38,928 nucleotides of DNA from a virus: positions 1 through 38,928 of the IMG/VR virus record IMGVR_UViG_3300033233_000975; one strand, written 5' to 3'. The notes beneath the pieces were generated by a model. The model did not search any database and had not been told where the DNA came from. It was given only the letters and a program-made list of their open reading frames with translations. Below, one piece after another: positions 3,610 through 36,191 of this stretch. Within the stretch, counting starts at the first letter, position 1. Every line of letters begins with the position of its first letter. The position numbers were made by a program, and so were the translations under genes.

Positions 3610-4302
3610 TTAATTATTTATAATTTTTTTAATCTTATCTATTTGTTCGACAAGTCTTTTATTATTACCATAATCTTCTTTGAAAGCTTTCTTAATGTTT
3701 TTACCAACATCTTTTATGTTTTTACCGACACCTTTGGTAATATCATTGGCAATTGAAAATGGGGATAATAATGTATCTAAGAAAACATTACCAGACCCAA
3801 CATTTTTATTTCCAATATCAAGTTTAGGGTTATCATCAAGTTTAGGGTCATCTTGTATTGGTTTATTTTTTTTAGGGTCTTCTTTTTTAGGGTCTTCTTT
3901 TTTAGGGTCTTCTTTTTTAGGGTCTTCTTTTTTAGGTTCTTCTTTTTTAGGACCAACCCCTTTTAGATATGTTGATACGTCTAATTTTTTATCATCATTG
4001 TTTTTTATTGAGTAACTAATTCTATCGTCAGTGAAATACCCAATAATTTGACCTTGTTTTATTCTATCGCCTGGTGAAACAAATGATTTACCGACATTAC
4101 AAAATTCGGAATATATATCATCACCATTAAACTCATGTTTAATTTTAATAAAATTTTCACAAGAAGGTGTTCTGTCAAAAATAATAACACCGTCATACGG
4201 ATTTATTAATTTTGAATTTGGGTATGCAATTAAATCAACAGATTTTGACATCATAGATGATTTCATATTACCATACGGGGCTGGGTTAATAAATTTTTCC
4301 AT
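3610..4302 (-). CDS. M23-like (lysostaphin-fold) protein with a KKEDP repeat, probably non-catalytic
   Basis: 230 aa. Residues ~35-100 resemble an M23 beta-sheet core: IKHEFNG...YSEFCNVGKSFVSPGDRIKQGQIIGYF matches the typical pattern of H..G..Y.HL...GD.V..GQ.IG, shown here only as pattern. The second zinc histidine motif (HxH) is not visible, so it is likely a binding or structural derivative. Then come five to six PKKED pentapeptides (about 118-145), a hydrophobic stretch (FLDTLLSPFSIAND) and a basic C-terminus ending LVEQIDKIKKIINN. The same FL..LL and LIE.I..IK endings are found in the upstream M15 protein; the two genes overlap by one nucleotide (TAATG) and are probably translated together. 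Confidence 0.65.
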   Translation of the reverse strand: MEKFINPAPYGNMKSSMMSKSVDLIAYPNSKLINPYDGVIIFDRTPSCENFIKIKHEFNGDDIYSEFCNVGKSFVSPGDRIKQGQIIGYFTDDRISYSIKNNDDKKLDVSTYLKGVGPKKEEPKKEDPKKEDPKKEDPKKEDPKKNKPIQDDPKLDDNPKLDIGNKNVGSGNVFLDTLLSPFSIANDITKGVGKNIKDVGKNIKKAFKEDYGNNKRLVEQIDKIKKIINN

Positions 4303-5519
4303 TATAATAAATTTTTAATTCTTTTAATATCCTCAATCAATTTATTGGTTGGTTCCTCACCTTCTTTAAACCCTAAAGAACCTAACAATGGGCTTAAAAA
4401 TTTTTGGATAACGTCGTTACTTTGTGATGAATCATTAGAATCATTAGAATCATTAGTCGAATCATTAGTCGAATCATTAGTTGAGATAGAAGTTGAGTTA
4501 GAGGTTGAATCGTTAGTTGAATTAGACGTTGTTGTGATTGATTCATTACCAATATAGAATAAATGCCAAGGTTCTTTTTTTCTAAGTACCCCATCAACAT
4601 TGTAAGTTACCTTAAACCCATATTTTTTACAATTATCCGCAACCCAATTTTTAACCGCTGAATTTGTATCCCACCAACTAGGTTCAGTACTAAATATGTC
4701 AAAGGCCTTTCCTGTGTGGTGTTGAGAAAAACCAGGAATTGTGTTATACTTTTGTGTGTCATCAACACCCCTATCTTTAGCTTTTTTTCCAAAATTATCT
4801 ACTTGGTCATCATAACTTCTATAATCAGAAACAATACCGTCGGGAAACCGAACTTTAGGGTTTGCTTTTTTACAATCTTTTATTAATTTTTCAATACTTT
4901 TCTTAGCTTCGTTATTAATCCCTCCATTATCTGGTTGTATATTACCTTCTTGTTTAAATTCTTTATCAATATGTGATTGAGTAATGTTAATACCATACTT
5001 TGTTTTTAATTTATTTATCGAGGATTTAATTTTTTCAGGTAAGTTTTTAAAATTTGTGGATTGAGTATCACTCCCTGTAGACGTACCATTATCAGATTTT
5101 CTTGATACATGAACATGATGATGATGATTTGGAAATCCAAACCATAAAACGGCTTTATCGTTACCTCGTTCAGAATTTACTTTATACCCCATAGATTCTA
5201 GGGTTCTAACAAATTTTTCAATTTTATCGTAAATACCTTTTTTTTGAGCACTTTCTTTACTACCGTAACCTTTATTATCAAACATTGCCAAATCAACCGC
5301 TAAACCAAGCTCATGTCTAGTACCTTTTTGATGTCCTGAAACTGCGGTTGTTACACTAGCCATAACATTAGCGTTTTTAGCAGCTAAATTTACGTCCATT
5401 AATAAAGATGGGTTTATTTTATCAGAGGCGGGATTACCGTGACCAATTTGTTTAAAATTAACATTACTATATTTTGAAGGTTGGACCGATTCGGGCTTCT
5501 CGTTAATATAACTTCTCAT
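4302..5519 (-). CDS. Double-domain M15 peptidoglycan peptidase (endolysin-like)
   Basis: 405 aa with two zinc D,D-/L,D-peptidase domains. Domain 1 (about 20-140) has GTRHELGLAVD (H69, D76) and NHHHHVHV (131-138). Domain 2 (about 160-325) is VanY-like, with SQHHTGKAFD (265-274) and EPWHLFY (316-322), the complete HxxxxxxD...EPWH ligand set. A Ser/Thr/Asn/Asp-repeat linker (about 330-370) leads to a C-terminal FLSPLLGSLGF and LIEDIKRIKNLL, shared with the next gene. It should cut peptidoglycan stem peptides or cross-links during lysis or, if virion-bound, during entry. There is no signal peptide. Confidence 0.85.
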   Translation of the reverse strand: MRSYINEKPESVQPSKYSNVNFKQIGHGNPASDKINPSLLMDVNLAAKNANVMASVTTAVSGHQKGTRHELGLAVDLAMFDNKGYGSKESAQKKGIYDKIEKFVRTLESMGYKVNSERGNDKAVLWFGFPNHHHHVHVSRKSDNGTSTGSDTQSTNFKNLPEKIKSSINKLKTKYGINITQSHIDKEFKQEGNIQPDNGGINNEAKKSIEKLIKDCKKANPKVRFPDGIVSDYRSYDDQVDNFGKKAKDRGVDDTQKYNTIPGFSQHHTGKAFDIFSTEPSWWDTNSAVKNWVADNCKKYGFKVTYNVDGVLRKKEPWHLFYIGNESITTTSNSTNDSTSNSTSISTNDSTNDSTNDSNDSNDSSQSNDVIQKFLSPLLGSLGFKEGEEPTNKLIEDIKRIKNLL

Positions 5520-9475: not shown

Positions 9476-9551
9476 ATATCATATAAATACATAGTCGAAC
9501 CCTAAAACTACCACTTATCACATAATTATTTTACTAATATGTTTATTTTTG

Positions 9552-9622
9552 CGGTCCATCCCGGTTATGCTCCGAGGGCTTGTCCGTGACAGGGACAAAT
9601 GTTACTATTACACCAATAGACC
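9552..9622 (-). tRNA. tRNA-Asp (anticodon GTC), atypical T loop
   Basis: Acceptor GGTCTAT/ATGGACC is fully paired, the D region GTGTAATAGTAACAT is typical for Asp, and the anticodon arm TGTCC-CTGTCAC-GGACA gives GTC. The T stem CTCGG/CCGGG forms, but its loop is AGCATAA instead of TTCNANN, which should weaken the elbow contact. CCA is not encoded. Confidence 0.75.
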
Positions 9623-9702
9623 AAGTTTATCAGTCTTTCCTGAACGTCACCTCTAACCCACAGGTATGAACCCGTATCGTAGTAAAGCTTGGTTGGCCAT
9701 AG
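9623..9702 (-). other. Spacer with a possible tRNA-like fold, CAT-containing loop
   Basis: On the minus strand ACCAAG and CTTGGT can close a fold of about 70 nt around a 5-bp hairpin, ACGGG-TTCATA-CCTGT. The loop contains CAT but has only six bases, and I cannot build normal D and T arms. It may be a decayed tRNA or an unrelated structured spacer between tRNA-Asp and tRNA-Glu. Confidence 0.2.
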
Positions 9703-9774
9703 TAGTCCCACCGGGAATCGAACCCGACTTTCCAGGATGAAAACCTGACGACCTAACCGATAGTCGATGGGACC
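9703..9774 (-). tRNA. tRNA-Glu (anticodon TTC)
   Basis: Acceptor GGTCCCA/TGGGACT, D arm GACT...GGTC, anticodon arm TCAGG-TTTTCAT-CCTGG (TTC) and T arm TCGGG-TTCGATT-CCCGG. All arms pair, with a few G-U pairs. CCA is not encoded. Confidence 0.92.
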
Positions 9775-9781
9775 AAAAATC

Positions 9782-9842
9782 AGGGTAGACACGGGCCTAG
9801 CTAGCCATCTTTCAGGAAAGGCCCTTACGAATATTCTACCCT
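9782..9842. other. Compact 61-nt structured element between tRNAs, strand unknown
   Basis: AGGGTAGA (9782-9789) pairs perfectly with TCTACCCT (9835-9842), and inside it GGGCC (9793-9797) pairs with GGCCC (9820-9824), with a further CTTTC/GAAAG hairpin. It is not a cloverleaf: no T arm or anticodon loop. It fills the space between tRNA-Glu and tRNA-Met and is co-transcribed with them. A processing signal, small ribozyme or degenerate tRNA are all possible. Confidence 0.45.
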
Positions 9843-9849
9843 TTTGTTG

Positions 9850-9922
9850 TTGCGGGAACAGGGCTCGAACCTGTAATCTCGGCTTATGAGACCGAGCGGA
9901 TGACCAATTTCCACATCCCGCG
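9850..9922 (-). tRNA. tRNA-Met (anticodon CAT), initiator-like C1-A72 end
   Basis: CGCGGGA pairs with TCCCGCA over six base pairs and leaves a C1-A72 mismatch, followed by A73. The anticodon arm TCGGT-CTCATAA-GCCGA gives CAT, the T arm is ACAGG-TTCGAGC-CCTGT. The C1-A72 mismatch is the mark of bacterial initiator tRNA, but the three G-C pairs of the initiator anticodon stem are absent and the D arm (TGGAAATTGGTCATCC) looks elongator-like. Initiator, elongator or Ile2 identity is unresolved. Confidence 0.88.
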
Positions 9923-9927
9923 ATATG

Positions 9928-10001
9928 TAGTTAATATTGGACTCGAACCAATGACCTATTCCGTATCAGGGAATTGCTCTAACCAACTGAGCTAATTAAC
10001 T
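9928..10001 (-). tRNA. tRNA-Ile (anticodon GAT)
   Basis: Acceptor AGTTAAT/ATTAACT, D arm GCTC..GAGC, anticodon arm ATTCC-CTGATAC-GGAAT (GAT), T arm ATTGG-TTCGAGT-CCAAT. Canonical cloverleaf. CCA is not encoded. Confidence 0.95.
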
Positions 10002-10013
10002 ATATTTTTTTTG

Positions 10014-10087
10014 GGTAACTAATGGGAATTGAACCCATGGCACAAGGTACCACAAACCTTTGCTCTACCAACTGAGCTATAGTCACC
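10014..10087 (-). tRNA. tRNA-His (anticodon GTG)
   Basis: Acceptor GTGACTA/TAGTTAC with an extra G at -1 facing C73, the histidine identity feature. Anticodon arm AAGGT-TTGTGGT-ACCTT (GTG) and T arm ATGGG-TTCAATT-CCCAT. The 5' end includes G-1 at 10087. Confidence 0.95.
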
Positions 10088-10286
10088 ATTTATTTGTAGT
10101 TAAGTAGCTGACACACACTCTCGTTTCACCATCTTATGTCAACAGGTTAATGCACTTTACGAGTTTCCCGTTTCTTACCACCACAATATTTTAATTTCAA
10201 TGAACTTCTTCTTTCTTCACGGGAGTAGGACACCAACCTCTTACTTCCTACCCCGTTGTTTCTCTTACAAATCTATGAATTTTATT
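10088..10286 (-). other. About 190-nt leader or structured spacer upstream of tRNA-His
   Basis: No gene is visible. On the minus strand a TAGATTTG box at 10270-10277 could start a transcript that runs into the tRNA cluster. Just downstream GGGGTAGGA and TCCTACTCC form a 9-bp hairpin (about 10224-10257 on the plus strand). The composition is less AT-rich than the flanks. It may be a tRNA-operon leader or a further small RNA. Confidence 0.4.
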
Positions 10287-10487
10287 TCAATCTGCCAAAT
10301 AAACTTTAATATTTTCTTTATTTAATGTCCATTTTCTGAATTTATTGGACATACCGTTTAAGTAATCTGTATCCAAAGAATCTTTTATAAAATCAATTAG
10401 AACTTCTTTTTGAATATTTTTGTCTGTAATTTTGAGTTCTTTCATTCTATTAAGAACACCATCAGGTATGTTAATTGTTATTTCCAT
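10287..10487 (-). CDS. Small unknown protein, 66 aa
   Basis: Starts MEITINIPDGVLNRMKEL. A longer reading with an ATG at 10526 is possible but would run through the promoter: TTTG (10520-10523), 20 nt and TATCTTTG (10492-10499) end just before the ATG at 10487, so the later start is right. The N-terminal beta strand followed by helices (EITINIPDGVLNRM) resembles ribbon-helix-helix-type regulators, but this is weak. It separates the two tRNA groups. Confidence 0.6.
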   Translation of the reverse strand: MEITINIPDGVLNRMKELKITDKNIQKEVLIDFIKDSLDTDYLNGMSNKFRKWTLNKENIKVYLAD

Positions 10488-10491
10488 ATCA

Positions 10492-10523
10492 CAAAGATAT
10501 GTAATCACTTTTGATTTGCCAAA
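10492..10523 (-). promoter_or_regulatory. Promoter that fixes the start of the 66-aa gene
   Basis: TTTG (10520-10523), 20-nt spacer, TATCTTTG (10492-10499) on the minus strand, 4 nt before ATG 10487. It predicts a leaderless or nearly leaderless mRNA and may also feed the downstream tRNAs. Confidence 0.7.
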
Positions 10524-10553
10524 CAATTTGTAAAATATTTTTTATTTTTTTTG

Positions 10554-10627
10554 TACCTCCAACAGGACTCGAACCTGTAAAATTCATTTTCTAAGAATGA
10601 CTCGTATACCAATTCCGACATAGAGGC
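10554..10627 (-). tRNA. tRNA-Leu (anticodon TAG), short variable region
   Basis: Acceptor GCCTCTA/TGGAGGT, anticodon arm TCATT-CTTAGAA-AATGA (TAG), T arm ACAGG-TTCGAGT-CCTGT. The D arm TGTCGGAATTGGTATACGAG looks Leu-like, but the variable region is only about five bases instead of the usual long class II arm. Confidence 0.88.
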
Positions 10628-10636
10628 GTTTTATTG

Positions 10637-10707
10637 AGGTCCCGATTGGATTTGAACCAACGTAAACGGTTTTGCAGACCGCCTCCTAACCACTCGGACA
10701 CAGGACC
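10637..10707 (-). tRNA. tRNA-Cys (anticodon GCA)
   Basis: Acceptor GGTCCTG/CGGGACC, D arm TCC..GGA, anticodon arm GCGGT-CTGCAAA-ACCGT (GCA), T arm GTTGG-TTCAAAT-CCAAT, discriminator T as usual for Cys. Confidence 0.94.
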
Positions 10708-10722
10708 ATTTTTAATTGTTTG

Positions 10723-10795
10723 CACTCCAGGAAGGTCTCGAACCTCCGACACCCAGATTTGGAATCTGGTGCTCTACCAACTGAGCTACTGAAGC
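10723..10795 (-). tRNA. tRNA-Trp (anticodon CCA)
   Basis: Acceptor GCTTCAG/CTGGAGT, D arm GCTC..GAGC, anticodon arm CCAGA-TTCCAAA-TCTGG (CCA), T arm GGAGG-TTCGAGA-CCTTC, discriminator G as expected for Trp. Confidence 0.94.
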
Positions 10796-10817
10796 GTATT
10801 GGGTGAATGGTGGGTAT

Positions 10818-10847
10818 AAAAAAACCCTAACTGTTTTGAGTTAGGGT
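10818..10847 (-). terminator. Terminator upstream of the second tRNA group
   Basis: ACCCTAACT (10824-10832) pairs with AGTTAGGGT (10839-10847), with a T run on the minus strand. It ends the transcript that carries the 36-aa reading frame at 10883-10993. Confidence 0.8.
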
Positions 10848-10882
10848 CTTATATTTCTTTTATATATTTAAGTTAATCTTTA

Positions 10883-10993
10883 TCAACTCATAAACGAAAA
10901 TGCCCTAATATGCGACTTAAGCGTACGATACACGTTAAACGACCACTGAATGCTCGGGTTACAAATGTTCATATGTCTATTAGTTGTTTTCAT
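10883..10993 (-). CDS. Possible 36-aa peptide, or small RNA
   Basis: A reading frame MKTTNRHMNICNPSIQW..., ending FSFMS, lies in a short unit with its own -7 box (TATATTTG, near 11040) and terminator (10818-10847). The transcript would be about 200 nt. The peptide has no recognisable motif; the unit could equally be a small noncoding RNA. Confidence 0.4.
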   Translation of the reverse strand: MKTTNRHMNICNPSIQWSFNVYRTLKSHIRAFSFMS

Positions 10994-11076
10994 TTTGTTA
11001 TAAATATATCGTTGTTTCTAAAAATTTAATTCTTTTACAAATATATGTAGTTTTTTTTAATTAACAAGTGTTTTTA

Positions 11077-11571
11077 TTATTTAACTTCAAACGCATAAAA
11101 CAATATACGTTTTTTCTTGGTTGAATCTTCATAGTTACCAATCACAACACCATCTTTAATTGTGAAAGCGTGACGACTAACTAACATAAAAAATGTCCCA
11201 ACAGGGTTTTGTTTTGTAAAAGTACCAACAGTCATTTTACGGTTAACCTTTTCACCCTTTACGTTAACGGTATATTCTAATGTGCGTCTATTGTAATTGT
11301 TTAATTTACCAACACATTTAACTTTTTTGTAATTTATTTGAGTTCTATTCTCCGCAAGTTTGGTCATTTTATTTACAGTACCATAAGTTCCTTGACGGTT
11401 ATTACGACCAAAGTTATCTCTAACGTATCCGTGAGCATAATTGTAAGACACATCAAAACAAGATGCGAATGCTCTTACAACACAATCATTTTTTTCATTT
11501 TTCGCAATTTGGGATTCTTCATAACCTTTAATCGCTTTTTCTGTATTACAATATGGTAGTGAGTCTTTCAT
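11077..11571 (-). CDS. Papain-fold-like cysteine peptidase candidate
   Basis: 164 aa from MKDSLPY. A longer start at 11586 would begin inside the -7 box TATCTTTA (11576-11583), so 11571 is preferred. NDCVVRAFASCF (Cys30) has the Asn-Asp-Cys helix start of papain-like peptidases, and VSRHAFTIKDG (His134) with a following Asp/Asn (Asp140 or Asn146) completes a plausible Cys-His-Asp triad. Such NDC...GH proteins are widespread and poorly studied in phages. Substrate unknown; processing of phage or host proteins is possible. Confidence 0.6.
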   Translation of the reverse strand: MKDSLPYCNTEKAIKGYEESQIAKNEKNDCVVRAFASCFDVSYNYAHGYVRDNFGRNNRQGTYGTVNKMTKLAENRTQINYKKVKCVGKLNNYNRRTLEYTVNVKGEKVNRKMTVGTFTKQNPVGTFFMLVSRHAFTIKDGVVIGNYEDSTKKKRILFYAFEVK

Positions 11572-11654
11572 ATTGTAAAGATACAAAAAATTTTGTAATC
11601 GGAGTCTACTTTTGCAAAAAATATTAAACTAATAAATTAAAATTTTTATCTTTT

Positions 11655-11694
11655 AACCCAAAACCATGTGTCCTACCATTAGACCAAAAGACTG
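11655..11694 (-). pseudogene. 5'-half remnant of a tRNA-Gln
   Basis: On the minus strand AGTCTTTTGGTCTAATGGTA, continuing GGACACATGGTTTTGGG, has the acceptor 5' strand, the D arm (GTC...GAC around TAATGGTAG) and an anticodon-loop sequence TTTTGGG with TTG. The 3' half, including the other anticodon strand and the T arm, is missing and replaced by AT-rich sequence. Either a decayed tRNA or a trace of recombination at an anticodon loop. Confidence 0.4.
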
Positions 11695-11750
11695 TTTTAC
11701 TATTTTTTTGATATTTATAGTCTGGCATAAACCTTTAATCAACATTAAAA

Positions 11751-11915
11751 ATGACTAAAGAACAAATCCAAGGTATCGTTAGACACGCACTTACTTTTGT
11801 AGGTGGTATCCTGATTATGAAAGGTCTTGCAACTGATTCATCAGTACAAGAACTTATCGGAGCAACGGTTACACTTGTAGGTGGTGTGTGGTCAATTATT
11901 TCTAAAAAGAAATAG
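11751..11915 (+). CDS. Small two-helix holin candidate (Pam3-gp28-like)
   Basis: 54 aa: MTKEQIQGIVRHALTFVGG, a first hydrophobic helix ending LIMKGLA, a short polar turn, then LIGATVTLVGGVWSIIS and a KKK tail. Length, the opening helix with RH and the two glycine-rich hydrophobic helices match the small putative holin family known from cyanophage Pam3 (recalled from annotation, not checked). It is on the opposite strand to its neighbours, alone, and followed by a strong terminator. Confidence 0.65.
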   Translation: MTKEQIQGIVRHALTFVGGILIMKGLATDSSVQELIGATVTLVGGVWSIISKKK

Positions 11916-11936
11916 TTGATAAATACCAAATCAAAG

Positions 11937-11966
11937 AAAAAAGGGGGAATTATCCCCCTTTTTTTG
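11937..11966. terminator. Bidirectional terminator
   Basis: AAGGGGGA (11941-11948), ATTA, TCCCCCTT (11953-11960), with T runs in both directions. It lies between the convergent holin candidate and the archaemetzincin gene. Confidence 0.8.
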
Positions 11967-11990
11967 TTTATTGATGTAAAAAAATTATCA

Positions 11991-12698
11991 CTAATTAATT
12001 TTTAATTTACACTCATTACAGAACTCTTTAGTGTCTAAACCGTGAGATTTCATGATACAAGATTGGTTATTACAGTGAGATAACCCAAAGTTATGTCCTA
12101 ATTCGTGTACCGCAGTATGAACTAAACTAGTATTATTATAGTGATTGTTGTTTCTCATTTCTTTAGTACTGATAACAGAACCGTCACAATTAATTCTTGC
12201 GTGTCCACTAATCAAATCATTAGAATTTTCATTACATAATGGTTCGTCAGTAACATACATATTCATATTTGATTTACCAACAGATAATGTTAATACTTTG
12301 TACGCTAATAATACGTTAGTGTTATTGTCATAGTAAAAATCATCTGACTCAACACTTTCAGAGATGACACAACGGATACCGTAGAAGTTTTCAACGCCTT
12401 CTTTGATTGTATAAAGGTCACTTTGAGTATATTTACCAAAACCGTGGATGTTAATTACTCGGTCAGAACTAACTTCAGTTGAAGATGGTTGTTCTGAATC
12501 AGTAATTTTAACCTCTTCTTCTTTTGAATAGTTCTTGTCATAACCGTAAACTTTGTCAAGTCTTTTTGCCTCAGACTCCAAAGAACCCATTACTTTGTCA
12601 TAACTATAGTCGTATTTTTCCAAATACTCATTGGTTCCTCCGATAACAAAAACCATCAAACCAATATAAACGATGTCTTTAAGTGCTGAATATTTCAT
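11991..12698 (-). CDS. Archaemetzincin-type metalloprotease (M54-like), membrane-anchored
   Basis: 235 aa. A hydrophobic N-terminal segment (about 8-22) acts as signal anchor; a polar, acidic region follows. The C-terminus carries HELGHNFGLSH (H198, E199, H202, H208), directly followed by C209-x4-C214-I-M216 and a final CNEC (C227, C230). HExxHxxGxxHCx4CxM...CxxC is the archaemetzincin signature: catalytic zinc plus a four-Cys structural zinc. The gap to the last CxxC is 10 residues, shorter than usual. The start codon lies 4 nt after the -7 box TACATTTG. A secreted or envelope protease is likely; the substrate is unknown. Confidence 0.85.
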   Translation of the reverse strand: MKYSALKDIVYIGLMVFVIGGTNEYLEKYDYSYDKVMGSLESEAKRLDKVYGYDKNYSKEEEVKITDSEQPSSTEVSSDRVINIHGFGKYTQSDLYTIKEGVENFYGIRCVISESVESDDFYYDNNTNVLLAYKVLTLSVGKSNMNMYVTDEPLCNENSNDLISGHARINCDGSVISTKEMRNNNHYNNTSLVHTAVHELGHNFGLSHCNNQSCIMKSHGLDTKEFCNECKLKIN

Positions 12699-12702
12699 AC
12701 CA

Positions 12703-12710
12703 CAAATGTA
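12703..12710 (-). promoter_or_regulatory. -7 box (TACATTTG) of the archaemetzincin gene
   Basis: TACATTTG fits TAnnTTTG and ends 4 nt before ATG 12698, implying a leaderless mRNA. I see no clear TTTG at the right distance upstream. Confidence 0.5.
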
Positions 12711-12737
12711 CTATTTTTTTTTTAATCTACAAAAAAA

Positions 12738-12989
12738 TTATTCATTTTTTAAATCGTCAATCATCATTTTTTTTAAAATTGATGGATTATTTTTCCACTC
12801 TTTCCAAGTTTCAAAATCTTTCAATCTTTCTAAGGTTTGTTCGGGTATAAGTAAAAACCCTTCAGGTGTTATACCATCATATTTATGAAAATGTGAATTT
12901 TCTATTTTTTCCGTAATCATTTGACAAAATAGTTCGCTATTAACAAACTCGTTGTGTTCTTGTTCTAAGATATTGTCATGTCTTCCCAT
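12738..12989 (-). CDS. Unknown 83-aa protein
   Basis: Soluble, charged, mostly helical (ILEQEHNEFVNSELFCQMI, then TPEGFLLIPEQTLERL). It recalls small conserved phage proteins of DUF type but I cannot place it. It lies just downstream of tRNA-Arg on the same strand and probably shares its transcript. Confidence 0.5.
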   Translation of the reverse strand: MGRHDNILEQEHNEFVNSELFCQMITEKIENSHFHKYDGITPEGFLLIPEQTLERLKDFETWKEWKNNPSILKKMMIDDLKNE

Positions 12990-13003
12990 ATAATAAATTT
13001 TAG

Positions 13004-13077
13004 TGACCTCGACTGGATTCGAACCAGTAACCTACACATTAGAAGTGTGTTGCTCTATCCAATTGAGCTACGAAGCC
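13004..13077 (-). tRNA. tRNA-Arg (anticodon TCT)
   Basis: Acceptor GGCTTCG/CGAGGTC, D arm GCTC..GAGC, anticodon arm ACACA-CTTCTAA-TGTGT (TCT), T arm ACTGG-TTCGAAT-CCAGT. It reads AGA, an abundant codon in AT-rich phage genes. It stands apart from the other tRNAs, between protein genes. Confidence 0.95.
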
Positions 13078-17436: not shown

Positions 17437-18840
17437 TTATAAATCGTTAGCCGCTGAACCCGCATCTGGTACAGGTATAGGTATTTTATTGTCACTATTA
17501 CTAGACCCACAATTCTTAAGAATTTTATCGTAAACTTCCTGAGTAACCGTAGTACTATATCCTTTATCTTTTAATCTTTGTTCTGTTTTAGCTCCAAATT
17601 TACCATCAACAGTAACACCAATACATTTTTGGAATTCACTTACTTTACTACCAGTACAACCTTTAGTTAAAGGGAAACTATCACAGACTTTATAACTATC
17701 GCTATTACCGCCACCGTTACCGCCGCCACCGTTACCGCCGCCACCGTTACCTCCGTCATTGTCATCATCATCATCATCATCATCATTCATACCTTCACAT
17801 GATATAGAGTAGTCAGTTCCTTCAATAGTAATAACTATACTACCATCTTGTTCACTCCATGTTCCACTATATTTACCGTTACCTGTTGTGAAGTCTTTAT
17901 CATCAAAAAATCTACCACCACCATTTTGGTCAATAGTAGAATTTCCTGTGTCAGTAATTAAAACGTAGTCTAAACCGTCACTAACCATTTTTTCAAAATC
18001 TTCTTTAGGAATGTTTTTACCAATACACTCAGGGAACGGAGCAGAACCTTCGTCTGTCCACCATTTCCACACTAAGTATAAACCACCCGCAATTAATAAA
18101 TATTTGAATATTTTTCCTCTTGCCAGTCCAGCTATTCTATTTTTAATATTTTGCCAAACAGTAACTTTACTTGGGTCTGGTTTGTAATCAGTAGATTTAA
18201 CAGTTGCTTTCTTACGTTTTGTAGTAGTACCACTTTTTTTATTACCAGTTTTATTACCAGTTTTATTACCAGTTTTATTACCAGTAGTACGAGGTTTAGG
18301 TGTTGTAACAACTTTAACTCGTTTATTTACGAATTTCGCGGCGATTTCATCGGCAATTGCTGGGTCGTATCCTTTTTTAACTAAAGTCTTACTAAGTTCT
18401 TTCTCACCCATCTTAACGTATCTAACATCTTTAACCGCTAAGTCGGCCGCTCGGTTAGTTAATTGTGTTCTTAAACTACCTGTAGTTTTCCCTGTTTTCA
18501 TTAACCCTTTGGCTAAATCGGATAATTGGGATTTGGTTAATGTATTTTTAATTAATGCGGTCATAACCTCATCACCACTCTTCAGTCCTGTTTTTCCGTA
18601 GATTGCGATATCATCAAATAAATTAACACCTGCAATATATTTGGCATTCCGAACTGTTTTTAATGCTAATGCTGCGGTTTCATCGGCAACACCTAAAATT
18701 GCTTTAAGAAGTGCACTTCTACCTTGTTCTACAAGTAACACACTCTCAACTAATGAAATATTTTCACTTAAAGTGATTTTACTGTTATAATTCATTAACA
18801 ATTTGTTTCTGTTAATTTCTTCTAAAATTATATCTTTCAT
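17437..18840 (-). CDS. Membrane protein with C-terminal peptidoglycan-binding domain, probable virion protein
   Basis: 467 aa. The N-terminus MKDIILEEINRNKLLMNY has the shared leader, followed by LSE, LVE and LVE sites (residues ~23-40). The middle has four TGNK repeats and basic runs, then one membrane helix (KYLLIAGGLYLVWKWW, about 245-260), a beta-rich segment, poly-Asp (eight D) and Gly/Asn repeats, and a C-terminal PG_binding_1 domain (TKGCTGSKVSEFQK..., VDGKFGAKTEQRL). This would fit a protein carried in the virion that touches the cell wall during entry. The function is inferred from domains. Confidence 0.65.
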   Translation of the reverse strand: MKDIILEEINRNKLLMNYNSKITLSENISLVESVLLVEQGRSALLKAILGVADETAALALKTVRNAKYIAGVNLFDDIAIYGKTGLKSGDEVMTALIKNTLTKSQLSDLAKGLMKTGKTTGSLRTQLTNRAADLAVKDVRYVKMGEKELSKTLVKKGYDPAIADEIAAKFVNKRVKVVTTPKPRTTGNKTGNKTGNKTGNKKSGTTTKRKKATVKSTDYKPDPSKVTVWQNIKNRIAGLARGKIFKYLLIAGGLYLVWKWWTDEGSAPFPECIGKNIPKEDFEKMVSDGLDYVLITDTGNSTIDQNGGGRFFDDKDFTTGNGKYSGTWSEQDGSIVITIEGTDYSISCEGMNDDDDDDDDNDGGNGGGGNGGGGNGGGNSDSYKVCDSFPLTKGCTGSKVSEFQKCIGVTVDGKFGAKTEQRLKDKGYSTTVTQEVYDKILKNCGSSNSDNKIPIPVPDAGSAANDL

Positions 18841-25772: not shown

Positions 25773-26783
25773 TTATCTTTTAAAATTTAAAATCTTATCT
25801 ATTACTATTTTTTCTTCATCATCGGTTAAACCGTGAATATCTTTGTGGGTTCTAAACCAATCATTAACTACAGAACTAAATGGCACTTTCCTTAGTTTGG
25901 CGAGTCTTTTAAATCCTGCGTATTGCGCCGGTATTTCATGTTCTTGAGTATAATAAACTAATGAGTCTTTAGTGTCAGCATCACTCCTATCCTCAAATTC
26001 TCCCCTATAATTCTGATGACCGTGTTCTAATTCATGAGCCAACACCTCATTTAACTCACCAATCAAATTGTAAACATATTCTTTAAATCTATTAGGATTA
26101 AATATTATAATAATCTCAACTACATCTTCCTCAGAAGAGTAATATCCATTCATCTGATAATCTTTAATATTACCGCTAGTTTTTAATGTTAATTCTACAT
26201 CAAAAGAAAATGGTAAATTAGTAAATTCGTATGATTCATCTTCTTTAGGTAAATAAAATAAACCCTTTTTACCTTCTTTAACTTTATATATGATATCTCT
26301 AACTACTGTTTTTAAAGCAACTCTACTCATTCTACCTTCATTCACTGTTTTTAAAGCAACTCTACTCATTCTACCTTCATTCATTGTTAATGGTTTTTTT
26401 CTCAAATCTAATTTAATATCCCAAATAGTAATTAGACTATCTTCATTATCAAATAATTTAATAACCGAAGAAATATAAGATTCTAAACTAGAATAAAAAT
26501 GATATAAATTATTTTTAAAAAATTGATATTGATTACCCCCAAGATAATTATTGTCTGAAAGAATTAATCTAGATAATCTATCATTTAATCCAATAATAGT
26601 AACCCCAACTTTTAAATAGTCGTAGTATTCACCAACACTAATCATTTCTTTGTACCCTAAAAACTCAATCTTAAAGTCAATATTTACATTTGTGTCGATA
26701 CCATTAATTAATATTCCATTATAATTAAATACCCTATTGGAAATTGTCTTATTTATTTTTTCTATTTGTTGTGGGTTTAACAT
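25773..26783 (-). CDS. HExxH metalloprotease (gluzincin-like), 336 aa
   Basis: Residues ~245-290 carry LAHELEHGHQ (H250, E251, H254) and, 27-29 residues on, QEHEIPAQYA (E281 or E283), which fits the third zinc ligand of gluzincins. The first 230 residues are beta-rich and unknown. Around residues 134-159 a 13-residue block, NEGRMSRVALKTV, is repeated exactly because of a 39-bp tandem duplication. Such small metalloproteases are recurrent in large phages; the target is unknown. Confidence 0.7.
   Translation of the reverse strand: MLNPQQIEKINKTISNRVFNYNGILINGIDTNVNIDFKIEFLGYKEMISVGEYYDYLKVGVTIIGLNDRLSRLILSDNNYLGGNQYQFFKNNLYHFYSSLESYISSVIKLFDNEDSLITIWDIKLDLRKKPLTMNEGRMSRVALKTVNEGRMSRVALKTVVRDIIYKVKEGKKGLFYLPKEDESYEFTNLPFSFDVELTLKTSGNIKDYQMNGYYSSEEDVVEIIIIFNPNRFKEYVYNLIGELNEVLAHELEHGHQNYRGEFEDRSDADTKDSLVYYTQEHEIPAQYAGFKRLAKLRKVPFSSVVNDWFRTHKDIHGLTDDEEKIVIDKILNFKR
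26305..26382 (-). repeat. Perfect 39-bp tandem duplication inside the gluzincin gene
   Basis: 26305-26343 and 26344-26382 are identical, which keeps the frame and repeats NEGRMSRVALKTV. Perfect identity indicates a recent event. Confidence 0.9.
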
Positions 26784-27011: not shown

Positions 27012-27077
27012 TTTTGTAAATCGTAACTAAGTACCTGAAGACAAATTAAAAAACCCTTTTTGAAATCAAATTATAAT

Positions 27078-27281
27078 ATGAAAAAATTTTTAATATTTTT
27101 AACTTTAGTTGTTAGAATCTATATTGCAACTAAAATACTTATTTTATTATACCTAACTTATTTAAATCCTGACCCACATACGATATCAGAACTAACTTGG
27201 TGGATTTACTTTTTAGTTTTTGATATTTGGTTACAACTTATCCTACCGAAACCAACGGAGGATGATAAATCGGAGGAGTAA
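27078..27281 (+). CDS. Small two-helix membrane protein, 67 aa
   Basis: MKKFLIFLTLVVRIYIATKI begins the first membrane helix; a second follows at about 42-58 (WIYFLVFDIWLQLIL); the end KPTEDDKSEE is acidic. A TTG at 27060 is in frame but the ATG at 27078 is preferred. It stops one base before the convergent stop of PPK2. Possibly a lysis or envelope accessory protein. Confidence 0.55.
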   Translation: MKKFLIFLTLVVRIYIATKILILLYLTYLNPDPHTISELTWWIYFLVFDIWLQLILPKPTEDDKSEE

Positions 27282-28400
27282 TTACTTAGGGTTTAAAACT
27301 GAAAGGGCTTCAGGGTAATATTGGTTTAATATTTTTTTATTTTTATCTTCATAAGGTATATTTTGGAGTACATACCTGATTGAATTTAATCCTGAGATTT
27401 TTTTATCGTTTGAATCAATAACAACCCAAGGATTATTAACTGTTGATGTTTTATCAAATAATTTTTCTTTAAATTCTGTAAATCTATCCCAAAGGTCTTG
27501 CATTTTTTCATCATTAGGGGAATACTTCCAATACTTAAGTTGAGATTTTTGTCTCATGTCAAATCTATTTTGTTGAGTTTCTTTTTCTATCGAGAACCAC
27601 AATTTAAATAAAAAATTACTATCTTTAACTAAATCTTCTTCAAACCCCTCAACATTGTCCATAAAATTTTCATATTCTTCAGGATTACCATAACCCATAA
27701 CTGGTTCAATAAGACCTCTGTTATACCAACTTCTATCAAATAAATTTATTTTACCTTTTTGAATTTGACTTCTGTACCTGTCCCACCAATTTTTTCTTTC
27801 TTCAGGTGTTGGTATTCCAAGGGCAATTATATTATAATTTCTTGGGTTCATGTTTTCGGTAAATTTTTTAATAGTTGACCCTTTACCCGCAGAATCTCTA
27901 CCCTCAAAAACAATGATTACCGTTTTTCCAGTTTTATTTAGCCACTCTTGAAGTTTTAATAACTCAATTTGTAAATAATATAACTCTTCTTTATACACTT
28001 TTTTAGGTACAACTGATGGTTCTTGTGGTTCAAATGAAAATTCGTCGTTAGTTTCAGGTTTACCTATGTTAATATGAGAATGTCTTTTTTCTAAAGATTT
28101 GATTAATTCGATAAAAAATTCGGATAAATTTAATTTTCTATTACCTTTTAACTTTAATAATTTAATCATACCTCTTTCTAATAATCCAAAATCTATTAAA
28201 TTTTCTTTGGCAAATTGTTGAATTTTATTTAAATTTATTTTATTTTCACTATTATATAATCGGTTGAACTGTAATAAATCAACAATTCTTTTTAAATAAT
28301 ATTCGTTTTTATTATCAGGTTCAGATTCAATAATAACCTTATTAGGGGTAAACCCCATTAAGTTAGTTATTCTATATATGTTAGACTCAATTAGTTTCAT
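27282..28400 (-). CDS. ppk2: Polyphosphate kinase 2 (PPK2) with extra N-terminal domain
   Basis: 372 aa. The PPK2 core (about 135-355) is complete: Walker A FEGRDSAGKGST (167-174 core), the GIPTPEE.K..W..R segment, Walker B FDRSWYNR (221-228) and the lid RFDMRQKSQLKYWKYSP (279-295). PPK2 moves phosphate between polyphosphate and nucleotides and usually makes NTP or NDP from polyphosphate. The first ~130 residues are not part of the family: MKLIESNIYRITNLMG is a leader of the type described under the findings, followed by VIIESE and a helical region. The start overlaps the stop of the upstream membrane gene (ATGA). Confidence 0.9.
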   Translation of the reverse strand: MKLIESNIYRITNLMGFTPNKVIIESEPDNKNEYYLKRIVDLLQFNRLYNSENKINLNKIQQFAKENLIDFGLLERGMIKLLKLKGNRKLNLSEFFIELIKSLEKRHSHINIGKPETNDEFSFEPQEPSVVPKKVYKEELYYLQIELLKLQEWLNKTGKTVIIVFEGRDSAGKGSTIKKFTENMNPRNYNIIALGIPTPEERKNWWDRYRSQIQKGKINLFDRSWYNRGLIEPVMGYGNPEEYENFMDNVEGFEEDLVKDSNFLFKLWFSIEKETQQNRFDMRQKSQLKYWKYSPNDEKMQDLWDRFTEFKEKLFDKTSTVNNPWVVIDSNDKKISGLNSIRYVLQNIPYEDKNKKILNQYYPEALSVLNPK

Positions 28401-28618
28401 TTAGATAATTTTCGAAAATAAAAGTATAATCCAAAGAATAGACCCGAAATACAATACAAAATTAAATTGGCGTATAAGATACTTCCTGTTACAGTAATAA
28501 GATAGTATTGGACGGCATCGAATCCAAATGGATTGAAGAACATGGCCAACATTAAAAATTTTACCGAAAGATTTCCTAAAAATATCTTTCTCCAAGTTTT
28601 TATAGGTACAATCATCAT
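28397..28618 (-). CDS. Small membrane protein coupled to PPK2, 73 aa
   Basis: Two membrane helices (about 13-33, FLGNLSVKFLMLAMFFNP; about 48-65, ANLILYCISGLFFGLYFYF) with a basic end RKLSK. Its TGA overlaps the PPK2 ATG, so the two are translationally coupled. Another frame (28401-28679) exists but is less protein-like. Confidence 0.55.
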   Translation of the reverse strand: MMIVPIKTWRKIFLGNLSVKFLMLAMFFNPFGFDAVQYYLITVTGSILYANLILYCISGLFFGLYFYFRKLSK

Positions 28619-30848: not shown

Positions 30849-31676
30849 TTAAATAATCTCCAAATTAACTTGATTTAAATTCCACGCTCTTGACAATCTT
30901 GTCATACCAATACCACCACCAAACCTTGGAAAAAAATTAAATGATAGGAACTCATTAAGTTCTGACTCAACTCTGTCTCTTCCAAATAGTTCAAACAACT
31001 TGGCGGAATAACCGCCACGTTCAATAGTATAAAAGTTATGTCTCATCTCTTCAGGGTCACAACTTCTTTCAGCGCTTCCAATAGTCTCTTGTCCGTAAAG
31101 TATTACATCAACTTTATTAAAAATACTATTTTCATTATGTTTCATATTCCAAAATGGATTTGTCCTCAATGGAAAATTCTGAAGTGAGATAACTGAACTT
31201 TTTTCTTTCCACATTCTTGATTCATGTTCATCTTCTAAAATTGGAATCCCTCCGTATTCTTCACACACATCATCATAATTAACTTCTACAGGTTTATCAA
31301 AACCTAAATAATTTAAAAGTTCCAATTCAAGTTTTACCATATCTTCCATAACACCTTTAGACTCAAATTCAAACATTGGGAATATTAGTTCGTGTCTACC
31401 AGGGATAGGATTTTTTTCCTGTCTATACGAAGTTGATATACAGAACACTCCGTTCCATTCGGGATTTTTAAGTAACTCATATTCTAACCACATCTGGCCC
31501 GTCTGTGGTAATGGCCAAACTTCTCCATTATAGTTAAAAGTTGCGATTGAATGTGGGTTTTCACATGCCGCCAATATTGATAACCTTGATTGTGTTGGTA
31601 CCTCTATAAATCCTTTATCAAGGAAAAATCCTCTCATCTTTTGTACTAGTTCATTGTAAGTTTTTGTGTCTTTCAT
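30849..31676 (-). CDS. Catalytic-core-only AsnRS/AspRS-like protein (possible asparagine synthetase)
   Basis: 275 aa with only a class II aminoacyl-tRNA-synthetase catalytic core. Motif 2 is SYRQEKNPIPGRHELIFPMF (R85, E87, H95, E96), and motif 3 is FGGGIGMTRLSRA (252-264). ETIGSAERS and PFWNMKHNENS fit the asparaginyl/aspartyl branch. The OB-fold anticodon domain (~100 residues) is missing. Archaeal proteins of this shape (asparagine synthetase related to AsnRS) make asparagine from aspartate and ammonia; a modification enzyme or RNA-independent amidation is the likely alternative to tRNA charging. Confidence 0.75.
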   Translation of the reverse strand: MKDTKTYNELVQKMRGFFLDKGFIEVPTQSRLSILAACENPHSIATFNYNGEVWPLPQTGQMWLEYELLKNPEWNGVFCISTSYRQEKNPIPGRHELIFPMFEFESKGVMEDMVKLELELLNYLGFDKPVEVNYDDVCEEYGGIPILEDEHESRMWKEKSSVISLQNFPLRTNPFWNMKHNENSIFNKVDVILYGQETIGSAERSCDPEEMRHNFYTIERGGYSAKLFELFGRDRVESELNEFLSFNFFPRFGGGIGMTRLSRAWNLNQVNLEII

Positions 31677-35765: not shown

Positions 35766-36191
35766 ATGAGAAAAATTCAAAATGGTGATACTGTAAAAGT
35801 TCACTACACAGGAAAATTAGAGGATGGAACAGTATTTGATTCTTCCTTGGTTGAAGGTCGCGAACCATTGGAAACTGTTTTAGGAGAGGGACAGTTAATT
35901 AAAGGTTTTGAAGCTGGATTAATTAACATGTCTGAAGGTGAGACTAAAACCGTCGAGATTGAATCTGTAGATGCTTATGGGGATTTTAACCCTGCATTGA
36001 TATCGGAAATTCCAATAACAAACGTACCTGAAGGTGTTAAAGAAGGTGAAATGCTACAAGGTATGGGGCCTATGGGACCTGTTAATGTAAAGGTAACCGA
36101 AATTAAGGAAGACGTAGTTGTTCTTGACGCTAATCACCCATTAGCAGGTAAAAAATTAATTTTTGACTTAGAAGTAGTTGGTATCTCTTAA
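35766..36191 (+). CDS. SlyD-type FKBP peptidyl-prolyl isomerase
   Basis: 141 aa. The FKBP core DTVKVHYTGKLEDGTVFDSS and GQLIKGFEAGLINMSEGE are intact, with an insert-in-flap segment (EIPITNVPEG...MGPMGPVNVKV), the layout of SlyD; the His-rich SlyD tail is absent. It catalyses prolyl isomerisation and can act as a chaperone. With dnaK about 2 kb upstream it suggests that the phage brings its own folding help. Confidence 0.92.
   Translation: MRKIQNGDTVKVHYTGKLEDGTVFDSSLVEGREPLETVLGEGQLIKGFEAGLINMSEGETKTVEIESVDAYGDFNPALISEIPITNVPEGVKEGEMLQGMGPMGPVNVKVTEIKEDVVVLDANHPLAGKKLIFDLEVVGIS

Follow-up and report, generated by a model that had tools for sequence, protein, structure and literature searches.

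Does the polyphosphate kinase encoded by this phage act only inside the infected cell, or does it travel in the virus particle and enter with the DNA? The gene lies in a 38,928-base IMG/VR fragment (IMGVR_UViG_3300033233_000975, positions 1 to 38,928; here, the window), which on sequence grounds is a fragment of a widespread T4-like jumbo phage group. We consider it likely that this class I PPK2 is head cargo of T4-like giant phages, which would be tagged, cleaved, injected and used for polyphosphate-driven NTP supply. As the PPK2 of these giant freshwater phages bears an N-terminal tag, predicted to be removable, like that loading T4 head proteins, the enzyme probably travels in the virus particle and enters the cell as infection begins. 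While the head is being assembled, the helix at residues 2-14 would serve as an N-terminal capsid-targeting tag, docking the protein into the prohead core. A gp21-type protease would cut after Glu25, at I-I-E/S (the site is seen in the sequence; here and below a slash marks the predicted cut), while the N-domain and the kinase would remain in the head and enter with the DNA. The injected kinase would use host polyphosphate and NDPs, most likely ADP or GDP, to make NTPs as infection starts.

The PPK2 gene (27282..28400, minus strand) has an ATG start and encodes 372 aa with a phage-specific N-terminus. It matches Pfam PF03976 at 2.3e-70, with 237.2 bits against a curated cut-off of 22.3, and the Pfam match and structure alignment place the catalytic core at residues 133-355 (27336..28004, minus strand). 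Walker A, GRDSAGKG (residues 167-174, 27879..27902, minus strand), is invariant in an 18-sequence alignment and aligned with D62/K66 of FtPPK2; Walker B is DRSWYNR (residues 222-228, 27717..27737, minus strand), and the basic lid residues are R279, R283 and K289. Both motifs and the lid residues are invariant in that alignment and line up with Francisella PPK2 residues proposed for catalysis and binding (PMC4748334). The residue after Walker B defines the PPK2 class, Asn standing for class I (PMC8776046); the alignment and tree rows identify it as Asn227 in the window, and DRSWYN with the class I Asn is present in 67/67 tree rows. By motifs, signature and homology the window enzyme is an intact class I kinase, and the original prediction was right that the PPK2 motifs are complete: the full domain, Walker A/B and the lid Arg/Lys residues were all found. 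The nearest solved structures, by single-domain score, are those of the Francisella class I PPK2 (4YEG/5LL0). The phage form resembles this enzyme, that of Sinorhizobium (3CZQ) and the TIGR03707 family in the core, Walker A/B, basic lid residues and Asn, but it adds a leader and a four-helix N-domain, falls in a separate clade and stays below an equivalog cut-off. Since its best NCBIfam model, TIGR03707, gives 270.9 bits, under the cut-off of 301.8, we regard it as a divergent class I enzyme. Among the PHROGs no family matched it.

The alternative that survives best shares packaging with the main model and differs in what the enzyme is for: the packaged PPK2 would mainly remove host polyphosphate, which serves in stress and defence, or make polyphosphate in reverse, rather than supply nucleotides. 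In some species class I enzymes also run backwards, e.g., with Mn2+, but the characterised ones mostly favour NDP phosphorylation (PMC8776046), and we judge this alternative possible, though rather unlikely. The sequence by itself is compatible with NTP supply and with polyphosphate removal or synthesis alike; the polyphosphate-to-ATP/GTP role is one that we infer.

What sets the phage enzyme apart lies in front of the core. About 130 extra residues had been proposed here; the N-terminal region is real, but its size needs correction. Bacterial class I PPK2s usually have ~85 residues before Walker A and the window has 166, so the phage excess is ~80 residues. We scanned viral contigs twice, obtaining 34 loci at first and then at least 263 relatives, 80 of which were kept; from the viral relatives 67 distinct full-length proteins were extracted, and all of these share the layout of leader, small helical domain, linker and PPK2. 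In the window, the 18-sequence alignment and the model define a leader at residues 1-25 (28326..28400, minus strand), made of the 2-14 helix, a disordered segment and the predicted prohead-protease site I-I-E25 before S. It is followed by the phage-specific four-helix N-domain at residues 28-110 (28071..28319, minus strand; pLDDT 86-95 per ten-residue block from residue 31) and by an acidic linker at residues 111-132 (28005..28070, minus strand), delimited by the alignment and by low pLDDT in the full-length model. That model was poor (pLDDT 61.9) and served for the N-terminal layout only. Structure prediction of the N-terminus with AlphaFold2 on 44 sequences gave the helix at 2-14, a confidence minimum at 20-26 and, with good confidence, four helices forming a domain at ~28-110. 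Glu25 is the sole invariant residue within the first 42, while the core is highly conserved in the same alignment; given the break and lowest confidence at residues 20-26, the invariant Glu appears to sit in a disordered gap. No fold matching the N-domain was found in PDB or BFVD, and an alignment of the N-domain only was too variable to serve as a genome-scan query.

In T4, gp21 cleaves after L/I-X-E (PMC9026906). We found [LIV]xE after the helix in 38 of 39 long-type leader representatives, the remaining one having M-T-E. At these sites P1' is confined to small, polar or acidic residues (E, G, S, A, D, Q or T), and P3 is Val in 6 of 38, whereas T4 is described as L/I. Shorter leaders end alike, e.g., HLINE/E, HLLSE/E and FIIE/E. 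The motif is short and common, which is a caveat for reading it as a cleavage site. A T4 gp21-type prohead protease is encoded in 15 of the 22 group records tested, not counting the window, and a gp23-type capsid protein in 4 of 12; the window fragment itself holds neither. The group capsid protein begins with a T4-like propeptide ending LINE/A, where T4 gp23 has SFLTE/A. Contigs of the relatives reach 321 kb, and among the records G001-G004 are closely related to the window. The resemblance to T4 CTS (IPII, IPIII) and gp21 processing covers a short N-terminal leader ending h-x-E, a gp21-type protease and a gp23-type capsid; it differs in that the cargo is a recognisable metabolic enzyme, and in that the helix consensus of the window group is a different one, LLNEI.RIKSVMG, found at C-termini too. 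The window-group helix tag does not itself resemble the T4 CTS in sequence; what connects it with head packaging is the cleavage motif, together with the occurrence of gp21/gp23 and the parallel that follows.

This parallel comes from three huge phages of 634-735 kb (LR756502, LR745206 and LR756501), whose PPK2s are also N-terminally extended and which have weaker gp21/gp23-type matches. We trained a 9-residue profile, K-K-Y-x-[DEQ]-F-I-N-E, on the N-termini of LR756502 minus its PPK2. The profile is ~180-fold enriched at N-termini of the training genome and 57-62-fold in the two untrained huge phages. When it is applied to 63 T4 ORFs, first and second place go to IPIII and IPII, with their known CTS, and the huge-phage PPK2 leaders follow the same order as T4, Y/F-x-x-F-[IM]-x-E. 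On this profile the huge-phage PPK2s rank 16/536, 16/459 and 22/460; the W02 and W03 scores are moderate (9.2 and 7.8), which counts against the packaging reading. Three window-group leaders score -3.0 to 3.6 on this profile, and the window N-domain matches the huge-phage extension weakly (55.8% probability over 37 columns at the domain end). In smaller phage records with a PPK2 match (H5-H7) such a leader was absent; these records may be bacterial DNA. From the ranks on a profile trained without PPK2 it follows that related kinases in two phage groups each appear to have a leader of the kind typical of their own genome, and we regard this as the strongest argument for a packaging role.

The same evidence bears on a second alternative, in which the PPK2 is an ordinary auxiliary metabolic gene used inside the infected cell only, its leader playing no part in packaging. 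PPK genes of viruses have been described from reservoir sediment, where ppk1/ppk2 were already reported as auxiliary metabolic genes and as expressed in metatranscriptomes (PMC13188868), and viral ppk in activated sludge is attributed to Li et al. 2025, Water Research, as cited in that paper. However, a cleavable-type leader occurs in essentially every examined group member, the huge phages have another, of T4 type, and a cytosolic enzyme alone gives no reason for an invariant Glu in a disordered segment. We find this alternative improbable. The predicted packaging signal, N-domain and fusions (below) also distinguish the phage PPK2s from virus-encoded ppk1/ppk2 auxiliary genes as described in the literature found.

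The original prediction of a leader motif was borne out in that the leader is present and recurs at other protein ends in the same phages. A profile built from PPK2 leader helices alone was, at thresholds of at least 12 bits, enriched in other proteins over internal positions, 24-43x at the N-terminal and 20-34x at the C-terminal end; these ratios are based on tens of hits, orthologues among records inflate the counts, and ORF calling was mechanical (ATG starts, greedy overlap). Unrelated N-tagged proteins include those at 208406, 208986 and 209574 of G013, and in the window an unknown 467-aa protein (17437..18840, minus strand; MKDIILEEINRNKLLM...ITLSE/N). In 17 of 20 N-tagged proteins, a set that includes paralogues and orthologues, [LIV]xE lies within 18 residues past the helix (internal-segment null 0.24, p=1e-8; untagged N-termini 0.34, p=5e-6). 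Of the C-tagged proteins, several were identified as M23 peptidases or a VanY carboxypeptidase, and in these the E site precedes the helix, towards the cargo; the window encodes one of each, a VanY-type carboxypeptidase (4302..5519, minus strand) ending NKLIE/DIKRIKNLL and an M23 peptidase (3610..4302, minus strand) ending NKRLVE/QIDKIKKIINN. T4 Alt also undergoes C-terminal processing (PMC9026906). Because a plain count of [LIVMF]xE at N-termini was just mildly enriched, we relied on profiles and on the controls h[TSN]D and h[TSN]K: five group contigs show a 2.5-4.5-fold enrichment of h[TSN]E at N-termini, none of h[TSN]D and little of h[TSN]K (1.2-1.9-fold). A caveat for the packaging model is that leaders are widespread in the group genomes, which would mean that a very large number of proteins are packaged, unless the tag has more than one job. 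Separately, many small proteins at 171000-185500 of contig G005 (loci L056 and L057) start MKIIITENQ, MKIVITESK or KIVRLTEADLARIVKRVI...E, forming a second leader class that likewise ends h-[TSN]-E.

Cell-wall enzymes recur among the partners of PPK2 as well. Eight relatives are extended C-terminally to 553-603 aa, all eight with N[IV]NE/Q directly behind the kinase; five scanned forms carry a C-terminal cell-wall hydrolase, namely lysozyme (L105, L110, L112, L120) or a SleB-type enzyme (L099). The simplest reading of a PPK2-hydrolase fusion would be a precursor split by the prohead protease. A broader proposal, which we put forward tentatively and with somewhat less than even confidence, is that a portable cleavable helix tag at either protein end loads many head cargos; these would include PPK2, which would burn polyphosphate of the host as soon as it arrives, as well as peptidoglycan hydrolases, a number of them in PPK2-fused precursors cut by the prohead protease. 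Alternatively, the tag could target another assembly, such as the tail, baseplate or lysis machinery, with PPK2 joined to cell-wall enzymes and not packaged in the head. Tagged or fused partners do include M23, VanY, phage lysozyme and SleB-type hydrolases, and a GH19/PG-binding gene adjoins PPK2 in several loci; yet the order of tag, [LIV]xE and cargo points to a prohead protease inside the head, and the huge-phage PPK2 leader matches the CTS of T4 internal proteins. This makes targeting to another assembly distinctly improbable.

The immediate neighbours of the gene were considered as well. A small (73 aa) putative membrane protein gene (28397..28618, minus strand) overlaps the PPK2 start by ATGA, so that the coupling to an upstream membrane protein noted originally stands for the window; as most inspected relatives lack this gene, it is not a general family feature, and a conserved role for it was dropped. 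Another small membrane-protein gene (27060..27281, plus strand), convergent with PPK2, is kept in most relatives inspected. Also near PPK2 is a class II tRNA-synthetase-like protein (30849-31676; Pfam tRNA-synt_2, phrog_29758), homologues of which lie beside PPK2 in L120 and L152. The window further encodes a phage DnaK (32000-33868; HSP70, Pfam 1.6e-254) and, by eye, an FKBP-like protein (35766-36191), both with look-alikes in contig G005, nine minus-strand tRNA genes (9551-13077; including Leu, Cys, Trp, Ile, His and Arg), and an unknown 336-aa protein (25773-26783) with an in-frame tandem repeat (NEGRMSRVALKTV twice).

A phylogeny of the core against bacterial PPK2s placed the phage enzymes in class I, 26 window-group and 3 huge-phage rows forming one separate clade (support 100/99). 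This clade groups with Bacteroidota class I sequences in a tree rooted by midpoint only. Bacterial relatives reach at most 49% identity, and the match is essentially limited to the core. Among the best 80 bacterial loci, matches start at residue 98 or later except in two (74 and 48), both of which have no leader, and the matches in Bacteroidota genomes, 39 of 198 of which have one, start at residue 103 or later. Although bacterial class I PPK2s carry their own extension of ~50-60 residues (PMC4748334), the idea that the phage N-terminus is a normal extension of a bacterial PPK2 subfamily is very improbable and was rejected on these match positions, the phage N-domain being absent from the bacterial PPK2s compared. 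As a separate observation, Bacteroidota have tandem or fused class I PPK2 pairs (flavobacterial loci L206, L286 and L289; also L214 and L248).

Packaging and injection of the PPK2 are well-supported predictions. The original interpretation is supported in part: its packaging proposal gains independent comparative support from the invariant protease-type site, the tag on either end of unrelated proteins and the T4-type CTS on the sister PPK2s of the huge phages. Viral ppk genes (PMC13188868) and capsid targeting in T4 were already known. Our literature search, thin on subscription journals, found no paper linking PPK2 to phage packaging, nor the combination of PPK2 with capsid targeting, the phage N-domain or a two-ended tag. 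SPN3US and phiKZ ejection proteins are alike in that giant phages load processed head proteins whose propeptides are cut after x-x-E, but their cuts fall at A-x-E or S-x-E, often behind long propeptides, and the literature searched named no PPK2 cargo for ejection proteins of this type. If our reading is true, giant phages would deliver an energy-metabolism enzyme together with their DNA and could draw on stored polyphosphate ahead of all phage gene expression. The T4 capsid-targeting rule would then extend to uncultured giant phages as a code that can be read, and with such a code the injected protein sets of many metagenomic phages would become predictable from protein ends.
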